Source of the DNA: a bacterium
GTDB taxonomy: Bacteria > CSSED10-310 > JAJRTK01
Reading direction: 5' to 3'
NCBI GenBank assembly: GCA_024278345.1
Contig: JAJRTK010000451.1
Location: 1-24,368 of the forward strand
Length of the DNA stretch: 24,368 bases
Positions 13,538 through 22,096 of the stretch are shown piece after piece. The notes beneath the pieces were generated by a model that did no database searches, was not told the DNA's origin, and worked only from the letters and a program-made list of their open reading frames with translations. The translations under genes and the position numbers were made by a program. Numbering within the stretch: position 1 is the stretch's first letter; each line of letters opens with the position of its first letter.

Positions 13538-14077
13538 ATGATGAACGACACCCCGCCGGCTAGACCGACTATCTGGTCCATCGTGTTGAACTGGCTTCCC
13601 CCTGGAAAGTCGCTCCGTCTCCAGGCGGGCTTGGCTCTCTTTGCAGGGTTCCTCTTTTGGCTTCAGATCTCCCGTCCGTCGGCGGCCGTATCGTGTTGGT
13701 CGGCCTTGGGTGCCCTCCTCTTCTTGGCTTTGAGCTACCCGGATCGATTTTGGGGTTCCATCACGGGGATTTTCGGGTTCGAAGCGGGTATTCTGGCAGG
13801 TCTCCTGGTGGGTATCGAGAATCATTCCCTTTGGATCGGTTCGGGTTTCGCGGGCTGCCTGGGACTCACGGCACTCACCCACCGGTTTCGATGGTACTCC
13901 CGTGGGTCGGGCGAAGGAGAAAATGGCATCGAGCCTCAAGTCATGGCCCGAGAAGTCGGGCTTGGCGCAGCTGCCGGTTCTCTGGCGGCCACGTTGCTGA
14001 CCGGCGAAGTGCTCCGTCTCTATCTCCTTGCCGCTCTCTTGGTGGCGGGTCGAGTTTTGATGGACAAAAAGGAATAA
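13538..14077 (+). CDS. Small multi-pass membrane protein, unknown function
   Basis: This is a 179-residue protein preceded by GAGGAA at good spacing to the first of two adjacent ATG codons. It has about five hydrophobic segments: roughly residues 27-43 ('LQAGLALFAGFLFWLQI'), 49-66, 73-92, 95-112 and a long one at 141-171. Between the fourth and fifth is a charged loop 'RWYSRGSGEGENGIEPQ'. No catalytic motif or named family is recognised. The 278 bp upstream separate it from the helicase gene and contain no other gene. A miniature mobile element has inserted 10 bp after its stop codon and does not disturb the coding region. Confidence 0.65.
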   Translation: MMNDTPPARPTIWSIVLNWLPPGKSLRLQAGLALFAGFLFWLQISRPSAAVSCWSALGALLFLALSYPDRFWGSITGIFGFEAGILAGLLVGIENHSLWIGSGFAGCLGLTALTHRFRWYSRGSGEGENGIEPQVMAREVGLGAAAGSLAATLLTGEVLRLYLLAALLVAGRVLMDKKE

Positions 14078-14094
14078 AGAAAGCCAAGCGGGTC

Positions 14095-14313
14095 GGGTAT
14101 CCACGCAAGGCGGGACATTCCCGGGACTGTGGAATCGAAAGCGTTCGGGCAACGCCTCGCTGTCGCTTGGCGGTCGTCCGGGGATTCCATCCCCCGTCCC
14201 CTGGCAGGGCATCGCCCTGCACCCACCAGGGAGTTACCTCCCTGGACCCACGTTTTTGTACGCTCCGCGTCTTTTTTGGGTTTTGTTGCGTGTCCCGGCT
14301 TAGGTGGATACCC
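14095..14313 (+). mobile_element. 219-bp miniature inverted-repeat element with 8-bp target duplication (element 1)
   Basis: The left end 14095-14117 (GGGTATCCACGCAAGG...) and right end 14291-14313 are inverted repeats matching at 20 of 23 positions. They are directly flanked by identical 8-mers AGCGGGTC at 14087-14094 and 14314-14321, as left by transposition. Inside are three consecutive perfect hairpins: GGGGAT/ATCCCC (14180-14194), GCAGGGC/GCCCTGC (14204-14220) and CCAGGGAG/CTCCCTGG (14226-14245). A block CCCACGTTTTTGTACGCT... at 14247-14269 follows, then a T-rich run. It carries no gene, so it would depend on a transposase supplied elsewhere. Confidence 0.88.
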
Positions 14314-14533
14314 AGCGGGTCCACCAGCGCCACAATGATCCATTTCCCCTGAAAGATTGACATTTCCATAGATTCAAGCCATGATCTTGCATGGAATAGG
14401 ATCTATCGATCTGCCAGGTTCAAAGGCCCTGCGTTGCGATGAAGTGGGGTCTAACAGCCGTCAGGGCAATAGCTGGCCAGGCCTTTTGGCACGGTTTGAT
14501 CCAGACCACGGATCGGATGGATGTGATTGATCC

Positions 14534-14584: not shown

Positions 14585-15937
14585 ATGAGTCTCCAAGGCT
14601 TCACGGAAGAAAAGGCGATCGCCGTTGCATTCAGGGTGGAATGCCGAACCGAGGGTTCCCGTTTTCTGGCGCTCATGACCCTGCTAAGCCGTCACTTTGC
14701 CTTCATCCACACGGCGAAACTCCCCTCGCTGGGCGCAAAGGCAAACATCCGCTTCACCATACGCAACCAGGGCTTCGTGGAGATCGACGGCACAGTGATC
14801 ACTGTGGAATGCATCAAATTCCAAGGCTTCGGGTTGCGCCTCGACGACATCAGCCGAGGCAAAAACGCGTTGATTGCTTTCCTGGATACCGAAGAAGGAG
14901 ACCTCCGAGCCGTTCCTCAGGAGGTCCAAGAGCAACGCCAATCCATGCGAATCCCCACGAACCTTCCGGTCTCTATTCTCAGGGGAAGACAGGAGATCAC
15001 CGGGACTCTTGTGGATATTAGCGAAACCGGCCTCTACCTGGCGACCCAAGGAGGAAAATGGTTTTTTGCACAAACCGTCCGACTCCAGCTCACGATTCCC
15101 CTGGACGACGGAAATATCGAGCCCGTCTCGCTGCCGGCCCAAATCATGCGTGTCGATCCGCCCGGTAAAGCGAAGAGAGGACATTCCGGTTGGGGTCTGG
15201 GGCTCCGTTTCACCGAAGACAACCGGCTTGCCACAAGTCTAGTGCTCCGCCTTCGCCCAGCGCTTCGTGCCCAACAGGGTAGCGATGCCAAAGCCCGCAA
15301 AGGTTTCTGGAAAGACGTTCAACCGACGGCGGCTGGCCGAGCACTACCCTCCGGCACAGGCGGTGAGCGCCCGGCTCTCCCTGGCGGATCGCGCACCCCG
15401 GCGCTCCCGAATCCCGTGAATACGTGGGCACGGCCAGCCTTGCCTACCCCCCCGCCCAAAAGCTCCAAGCCCGCGACTCCCGCACTTCCCGATCCAAGCA
15501 AGACTTGGGCGCGCCCGGCTTTACCCAGCGGAGCCTCCCAGCAGTCACCGCCCCCAAGGGACGACGAAAGACAACCTTTTCCGGCTCTACCAAGCCAGGT
15601 GGGCAGAAGAACACAACCCAACACCAAAGGAAACCGGCCCGCGCTTCCCGCTTCCCACCAGAAACCCGCTGGACAGCGACCACGCCCGGCAACCCGACCC
15701 GGCCAAACGCCCCTTCCCGCCCTGCCAAGCCGGGCGGGCGGTGGGCCGCGGCCCAGCAACACCGACTGGAACCGGCCCGCGCTTCCCGCTTCCCACCAGA
15801 AACCCGCTGGACAGCGACCACGCCCGGCAACCCGACCCGGCCAAACGCCCCTTCCCGCCCTGCCAAGTAGAATCGAGGAGCCGCGGAAGAAAGAGAACGG
15901 CGGTCAATTGGCACTCCCGGCATCGCTGGACGACTGA
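14585..15937 (+). CDS. Two-domain PilZ protein with Pro-rich 'ALP' repeat tail
   Basis: This 450-residue protein starts at ATG 14585 after AAGGATGAGG. Residues about 10-100 look like a degenerate PilZ-type barrel. Residues 116-225 form a second PilZ domain with both c-di-GMP-binding signatures: RxxxR in 'RQSMR' (118-122) and DxSxxG in 'DISETG' (144-149). It therefore probably senses cyclic di-GMP, which commonly governs motility, adhesion or exopolysaccharide. From about 230 to the end the protein is low-complexity: the tripeptide ALP recurs about twelve times, mostly as RPALP, TPALP or LPALP, separated by Gly/Ser/Pro/Arg-rich spacers. Thirty-odd residues of this tail are encoded by two identical 97-bp stretches. 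No membrane segment is seen, so it should be cytoplasmic. The tail may be a flexible protein-binding region; its partner is unknown. Confidence 0.82.
   Translation: MSLQGFTEEKAIAVAFRVECRTEGSRFLALMTLLSRHFAFIHTAKLPSLGAKANIRFTIRNQGFVEIDGTVITVECIKFQGFGLRLDDISRGKNALIAFLDTEEGDLRAVPQEVQEQRQSMRIPTNLPVSILRGRQEITGTLVDISETGLYLATQGGKWFFAQTVRLQLTIPLDDGNIEPVSLPAQIMRVDPPGKAKRGHSGWGLGLRFTEDNRLATSLVLRLRPALRAQQGSDAKARKGFWKDVQPTAAGRALPSGTGGERPALPGGSRTPALPNPVNTWARPALPTPPPKSSKPATPALPDPSKTWARPALPSGASQQSPPPRDDERQPFPALPSQVGRRTQPNTKGNRPALPASHQKPAGQRPRPATRPGQTPLPALPSRAGGGPRPSNTDWNRPALPASHQKPAGQRPRPATRPGQTPLPALPSRIEEPRKKENGGQLALPASLDD
15633..15867 (+). repeat. Two identical 97-bp direct repeats in the PilZ gene tail
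   Basis: The sequence at 15633-15729 is repeated, identical by eye, at 15771-15867. The offset is 138 bp (46 codons), so frame is kept. Each copy encodes 'RPALPASHQKPAGQRP...' and ends in 'ALPS'. Identity at silent positions points to a recent duplication. Confidence 0.9.
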
Positions 15938-21264: not shown

Positions 21265-21287
21265 GGGTATCCACTGAAAGCGGGACA
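21265..21287 (+). repeat. Third copy of the GGGTATCCAC... terminal repeat, in the transposase remnant
   Basis: GGGTATCCACTGAAAGCGGG plus ACA matches the left end of element 1 at 20 of 23 positions. It sits at the 3' end of the transposase remnant, where the end of its transposon would be expected. Confidence 0.7.
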
Positions 21288-21667
21288 AAGCCGATAGTAT
21301 CAAGCAAGAAGCCTGGTAGGTTGCCTCCTGCAGCGAGGCAATGGTAGCTGGTCGATTTTCGAGAGCAAAGTCTCAAAAAAGTCAGGAAACGAGTGCAAGC
21401 TTTCCGTTCAGGACATCGGGTCCGACTGGCTTCCCATTGCCAGTAAACCAGGGGAAGCAGAACCTCTTCGAGCCAATTTTTCTGGTGCGGAGGCAAGGGC
21501 AACGCTCCAAGATAGAGGCGAACTCTGTCCCACCAAAGATCCACCAAGGAAGCCAAGCCTTCGATCTGTTTTCTCACCTTTTTCAGGGTTTTCCGGTTCT
21601 CGGGTAGGCCGTGGGCTTCTCCCAAGGCCTTGAGGCTGTCTACGCAGGTTCGTCACTCCCGTTCGAC

Positions 21668-22096
21668 GGGTATCCACGTACCATGAAAGTACATGGTTAA
21701 ATCCATCTTCGACGGCGTGGTTATGGTGCTCGGCGCCATTCACTTTCATCTTCCGGGGGGGTGGTCGCCGGGATCATGCTCGTTACCATGAAAGTACATG
21801 GTTAAATCCATCTTCGACGGCGTAGTTATGGCGCTCTGCGCCATTCACTTTCATCTTCCGGGGGTGTGGTCCCCCGGGATCATGCTCGTTAAGGCGGGAC
21901 AGAACAGAAAAAAAGGAAAACGCGTAGCGTACAAAAACGTGGGTGGGGAACTCGTTGCTTTTCATTGCAACGGGTCCTTGCACGCTCCCCGGTCCACCTT
22001 CGAGTCACGCAAACGTGACCCGCCGAGCGGAGCTCGGCGTTGTCCGAGGCCGAGTTTCTTCCCGCCGACCCATTGTCCCGCCTTACGTGGATGGCC
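21668..22096 (-). mobile_element. Second inverted-repeat element of the same family, interrupted by a doubled 105-bp unit (element 2)
   Basis: The left end is GGGTATCCACGTA (21668-21680), continued after a 211-bp insertion as AGGCGGGACA (21892-21901). The right end is 22074-22096. The rejoined ends match at 21 of 23 positions. The left end differs from the left end of element 1 at only one position. Without the insertion the element is 218 bp, against 219 for element 1. The conserved block (CCCACGTTTTTGTACGCT... on the minus strand, 21943-21921) is at the same relative place. Interior hairpins are CGTTGC/GCAACG (21953-21972), GTCACG/CGTGAC (22004-22019) and CGCCGAGC/GCTCGGCG (22021-22039), different in sequence from those of element 1. 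No target duplication is visible. Confidence 0.8.
21679..21889 (+). repeat. Tandem duplication of a 105/106-bp multi-hairpin unit
   Basis: Copy 1 is 21679-21783 and copy 2 is 21784-21889, differing at a handful of positions. Each begins TACCATG. Copy 2 forms three hairpins: ACCATG/CATGGT, TGGCGC/GCGCCA and CCGGGGG/CCCCCGG. Copy 1 keeps the first fully and the second with a G-U pair. The third is weaker in copy 1. Confidence 0.92.

Follow-up and report, generated by a model that had tools for sequence, protein, structure and literature searches.

How a 219-bp sequence without coding capacity came to be inserted at this locus, which protein moves it and whether the chain of hairpins in its interior serves any purpose are the questions raised here. 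In the window, by which we mean the whole 24,368-nt stretch of DNA that was analysed, a 179-aa reading frame (13538-14077) ends 17 bp before the sequence begins and a PilZ-domain gene (14585-15937) lies downstream. The sequence is a miniature inverted-repeat element (MITE) at 14095-14313, belonging to a family termed F1, with the following parts.

14087-14094: left target-site duplication, AGCGGGTC, an exact repeat of 14314-14321; 8-bp duplications are also found at other copies
14095-14313, forward strand: F1-family MITE, 219 bp, non-coding, with inverted ends and a duplication, from a multi-copy family
14095-14117, forward strand: left terminal inverted repeat (TIR1), GGGTATCCACGCAAGGCGGGACA, one of 437 such ends genome-wide
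14153-14172, forward strand: hairpin A, a weaker, fourth hairpin with a 4-bp stem, CGCC/GGCG
14180-14194, forward strand: hairpin D, GGGGAT-TCC-ATCCCC, perfect, 3-nt loop
14204-14220, forward strand: hairpin E, GCAGGGC-ATC-GCCCTGC, perfect, 3-nt loop
14226-14245, forward strand: hairpin F, CCAGGGAG-TTAC-CTCCCTGG, perfect, 4-nt loop, occupying an exchangeable slot and common to a second family, F2
14247-14264, forward strand: conserved core block, CCCACGTTTTTGTACGCT, present inside both F1 and F2
14291-14313, reverse strand: right terminal inverted repeat, TGTCCCGGCTTAGGTGGATACCC, pairing with the left one
14314-14321: right target-site duplication, AGCGGGTC, exact

The two ends pair at 20 of 23 nt (87%). 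These ends and the exact 8-bp repeats at 14087-14321 are as described in an earlier, sequence-only reading of the same DNA, as are the three perfect hairpins with loops of 3-4 nt followed by a conserved block; hairpin A had escaped it. Folding, which that reading had marked for examination, is far more stable than expected by chance, with z-scores of -5.3 as RNA and -5.9 as DNA relative to shuffled sequence and no shuffle folding equally well.

The source genome (6.06 Mb in 550 contigs) was scanned for the TIR1 pattern with up to two mismatches. This returned 437 ends, compared with none for the reversed pattern at the same threshold, and therefore indicates roughly 200 F1 copies. Across 934 kb of the genome, inward-facing ends and their nearest partners are for the most part separated by 210-270 bp, several with exact 8-bp duplications. 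The core block pattern occurs 222 times in the source genome and is absent from 7 other genomes of the phylum, and no match to the element was found in 40 other genomes. Among 42 analysable F1 copies, 16 are flanked by an exact duplication 7 bp or longer and a further 3 by 8-bp repeats that differ at no more than 2 positions, while a clear duplication is not seen in 23. One copy (L128 3808-4087, duplication GCGGAACG) sits within a dispersed repeat, four other copies of which (L057, L137, L156 and L050; 83-89% identical) lack F1 and provide paralogous empty sites. F1 thus combines the attributes of a MITE, namely terminal inverted repeats, target duplication, many copies without a transposase gene and both filled and empty sites, the empty ones being those of the L128 copy. 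Mobility, which the sequence-only reading had drawn from one duplication, is supported much more strongly by hundreds of copies, recurrent duplications and paralogous empty sites. The repeat families together make up 1.75% of a 420-kb sample picked regardless of repeat content. In this sample 23 of 70 contig ends have such a repeat no more than 200 bp away, compared with 32 of 2000 random windows (1.6%). On the practical side, roughly one in three contig breaks of the assembly is the site of one of these repeats.

F1 shares the genome with other short repeats. F2 has ends GGCCTCGGTCATGGTACCGGCCACC, a length of 200-201 bp and duplications of 8-9 bp in 6 of 7 copies. At L035 335-535 it interrupts an ISL3 transposase frame with a 9-bp duplication, and the frame is continuous once F2 and one 9-bp repeat are removed and the flanks joined. 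The last hairpin (CCAGGGAG..CTCCCTGG) and the core block CCCACRTYTTTGTRCGCTGCGCG are common to F1 and F2; the ends and left interiors are unrelated, and the remaining F2 hairpins read as analogues of the F1 hairpins without homology to them. A third MITE family, F3, is 154 bp long with ends GGGACCTATCAAATC and 8-bp duplications (for example at L068 15441-15594 and L144 5839-5992), and one F3 copy is inserted within an F1 copy at L070 285-438. The window itself contains a second F1 copy interrupted by a further repeat, T.

21668-22096, reverse strand: second, degenerate F1 copy, one end of which is split by two tandem T elements of 103-104 bp

T is flanked by TA on both sides and lies in the window at 21681-21783 and 21786-21889. 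Copies elsewhere are found at L080 1839-1940, L108 5131-5232, L158 6445-6546, L147 4025-4126, L077 12188-12289, L074 6427-6528 and L104 382-462. At several loci with differing F1 interiors T occupies the identical TA of the F1 end in identical orientation (GGGTATCCACGTA, then T, then TAAGGCGGGACA), and it is seen once elsewhere (L092). T would seem to insert into a transposon end at a specific site and in a specific orientation.

Ends starting with GG together with 8-bp duplications fit several IS families, and ISL3 was the first candidate for a partner. That F1 might derive by deletion from an insertion sequence of the ISL3 family and be moved by an ISL3 transposase is favoured by a transposase fragment on contig C5 adjoining half an F1 with its TIR1, by ISL3 elements in other genomes that combine GG-starting ends of about 22 bp with exact 8-bp duplications, and by an ISL3-moved MITE with 8-nt duplications known in Microcystis (PMC11448079). 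However, what appears to be the C5 copy's own end, GGCTCTTCG, lies within the F1 core block (at the junction of CACATTTTT and GGCTCTTCGCC), and Microcystis ISL3 elements are reported to start with this sequence (PMC11448079). The C5 ISL3 is therefore most plausibly a passenger that lies within F1. TIR1 also differs from the ISL3 ends of other genomes (GGCTCTACTGG, GGTTCTC and GGATCATACC), whereas it resembles the ends of elements encoding the DUF6399 domain. For the resident ISL3 gene, a search for named relatives found none. With the ISL3 end apparently located within the F1 copy on C5, F1 does not qualify as an ISL3-derived MITE, ISL3 was rejected as the partner and an ISL3 origin is very improbable. 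IS1595 was also discarded as a source, as neither of the resident IS1595-family genes (L111 and L112), whose shared boundary reads GGCTCTATATGCGATCC / GGCTCTATATGCGATCCAGGGATCTAG, has a TIR1 nearby. The remaining candidates, IS4/ISAs1 (DDE_Tnp_1), ISKra4 and IS256 (Mutator), are either absent or present without TIR1 ends.

Intact DUF6399 (PF19936) genes encode about 530 aa and lie within elements in other bacteria. On Crinalium epipsammum plasmid pCRI9333.07 the gene is inside a 2505-bp element (L229 1298-3802) with ends GGCTACCAATCTAAGGCGGGACA identical at 23/23 positions and an exact 8-bp duplication, CGTTTTCT. On Thiodictyon plasmid pTs417 it is inside a 1916-bp element (L231 1396-3311) with ends GGCCTTGATCATCGTTCCGGCCACC and an exact 8-bp duplication, GTCCAACC, and on Acaryochloris pMB01 the end of the gene adjoins GGGTATCAATTTAAGCCGGGAAA. 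An 8-bp duplication is thereby common to the Crinalium, Thiodictyon and window elements, and 200 shuffles each of the Crinalium and Thiodictyon loci never produced such ends with an 8-bp repeat by chance. Comparison of F1 ends with those of the cyanobacterial DUF6399 elements shows 16-19 of 23 positions to be identical; for F2 ends and the Thiodictyon element the figure is 21-24 of 25, one F2 end reaching 24/25. The three DUF6399 proteins are 24-42% identical and share invariant D143 (DETF), D197 (SD), D217 (DLFH) and E449 (EGRNG), a pattern consistent with a DDE transposase. No NCBIfam transposase model claims any of the three, the PDB holds no sequence relative of the Acaryochloris protein and none of the papers searched mentions DUF6399. 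The domain was not found in viral contigs or phages, and no ends could be recognised around a fragment of it carried by a Methylomonas plasmid.

Pieces of the same gene occur in the source genome, one of them in the window directly beside the degenerate F1 copy.

21265-21667, reverse strand: remnant of the probable autonomous partner, with a TIR1 end (21265-21287) and, next to it, a disrupted frame encoding the DUF6399 C-terminal part

This frame matches the PF19936 profile at E 0.11 and Acaryochloris by tblastn at 2e-4, or 3e-6 in the reverse direction. At L125 181-441 a DUF6399 N-terminal piece (3e-5 to 5e-4) adjoins a TIR1 end immediately on its inner side. Such remnant matches have modest E-values over 43-85 residues, and the parts of the genome examined yielded broken N- and C-terminal pieces only, each beside one TIR1 end, and no intact gene. 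DUF6399 is the likely partner because its genes elsewhere lie in elements with like ends and exact 8-bp duplications and because pieces of the gene adjoin TIR1 ends here. The F1 element is thus very probably a non-autonomous DNA transposon of an IS family that has a DUF6399 protein as its transposase, the activity of that protein being read from the anatomy of the elements only. A DUF6399 DDE transposase would recognise the 23-bp ends in trans, excise or copy the element and insert it at a staggered cut spanning 8 bp.

The sequence-only reading had also suggested that the structured interior is under selection, and this claim stands in part. In an alignment of 20 F1 copies the two ends have mean pairwise identities of 0.93 and 0.89. 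By the same measure hairpins E and F reach 0.93 and 0.92, hairpin D and the core both stand at 0.85, and the spacers are lower, at 0.79 on the left and 0.67 in the pyrimidine-rich one on the right. Stems E and F are thus as conserved as the ends, above the spacers of the same copies, which suggests that the hairpins are under constraint. The slot just upstream of the core is filled by hairpin F (24), G (15), H (5) or I (1) in F1 copies and by F (13) or G (1) in F2 copies; all of these fold, yet F, I and the G/H pair are distinct sequences, so unrelated hairpins share one position. Against this, compensatory changes among F1 copies are limited to 3 pairs, the stems varying too little to inform, and selection at the level of structure is therefore not demonstrated. 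In hairpin A, 3 of 4 pairs are invariant among copies, and the inner pair of hairpin D is swapped between T-A and C-G in 8 copies. Nor is there a preferred orientation relative to neighbouring genes (7/6/4/4 in the four arrangements among 21 oriented intergenic F1 and F2 copies, using a crude gene caller), a terminator-like site within the element, or an Rfam match for F1 at gathering score or for F2 up to E 0.1. A host or RNA function of the hairpins is unproven given this weak covariation and absence of orientation bias to genes.

Three accounts of the hairpin chain may be weighed on these data. If it were a functional structured RNA or a host transcription terminator spread by the MITE, the extreme folding z-score, the conservation of the stems and the retention of the slot by non-homologous hairpins would all be accommodated, and clusters of hairpins have been proposed as intrinsic terminators (PMC8355165). 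The lack of orientation bias, terminator-like site and Rfam family and the scarcity of covariation argue against such a role, as do tandem arrays of one hairpin module, B, which are typical of slippage, and we consider it unlikely. The array in the F1 copy at L071 16151-16482 repeats a 23-bp hairpin unit, GGGTCACGTTTGCGTGACTCGAA, and suggests slippage expansion of palindromic modules. This array, together with hairpin exchange between F1 and F2 and the weak covariation, favours an account in which the hairpins are passive palindromes, liable to slippage and template switching and shuffled among MITEs without function. Such passivity is compatible with mobility driven by DUF6399 and is a realistic possibility, somewhat short of an even chance; what it accommodates poorly is that stems are as conserved as ends and more so than the neighbouring spacers. 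Alternatively, and tentatively, the hairpin chain and the CCCACRTYTTTGTRCGCT block may form a selected, exchangeable cassette needed by DUF6399-type elements, for example for transposase binding, single-strand folding or blocking of transcription, so that MITEs with unrelated ends would converge on one interior and swap non-homologous hairpins. Mechanistically, the chain may be kept and exchanged between F1 and F2 either because hairpins help the element, through single-strand folding or by blocking read-through transcription, or because palindromes recombine easily.

Outside the source genome, the hairpin linker pattern GCCCTGCACCCNCCAGGG gave 13 scattered matches in 385 other genomes, which is not clearly above the reversed control, and none of these lies in a hairpin chain. 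Separately, four prophage-like viral contigs (L201 4375, L202 8811, L203 15 and L204 1901) carry a hairpin pair with the same linkers (GCAGGGC..GCCCTGCACCCGCCAGGGAC..GTCCCTGGACCCC). The pair represents one homologous intergenic spot, with no tie to a MITE shown.

Among known systems, the 187-bp ISL3-moved MITE of Microcystis aeruginosa (PMC11448079) resembles F1 in its short length, 8-nt target duplication and stem-loop structure. Its ends, however, are those of ISL3 (GGCTCTTCG), whereas TIR1 matches the DUF6399 elements. QMITE2 of Coxiella, Chunjie of Geobacter, ERIC and Correia (reviewed in PMC10969869) are similar to F1 in size, and QMITE2 also has terminal inverted repeats of 23-29 bp, repeats of 7-9 bp and a stable predicted transcript fold (PMC10969869). 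Judged by their descriptions, F1 is set apart from all four by an interior consisting of an exchangeable hairpin chain that is common to two families with unrelated ends. The DUF6399 elements of the Crinalium, Acaryochloris and Thiodictyon plasmids share the end type and 8-bp duplications of F1 and F2 but carry the gene of about 530 aa that both MITE families lack.

Our results connect DUF6399, a domain catalogued as of unknown function, with a family of mobile elements that have defined ends and duplicate 8 bp of target, and in which its protein is the probable transposase. Elements of this type occur in the sparsely sampled phylum of the source genome, cyanobacteria and one gammaproteobacterium. 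With hundreds of natural variants in a single genome, F1 and its relatives make a case for asking whether internal hairpins matter in transposition.
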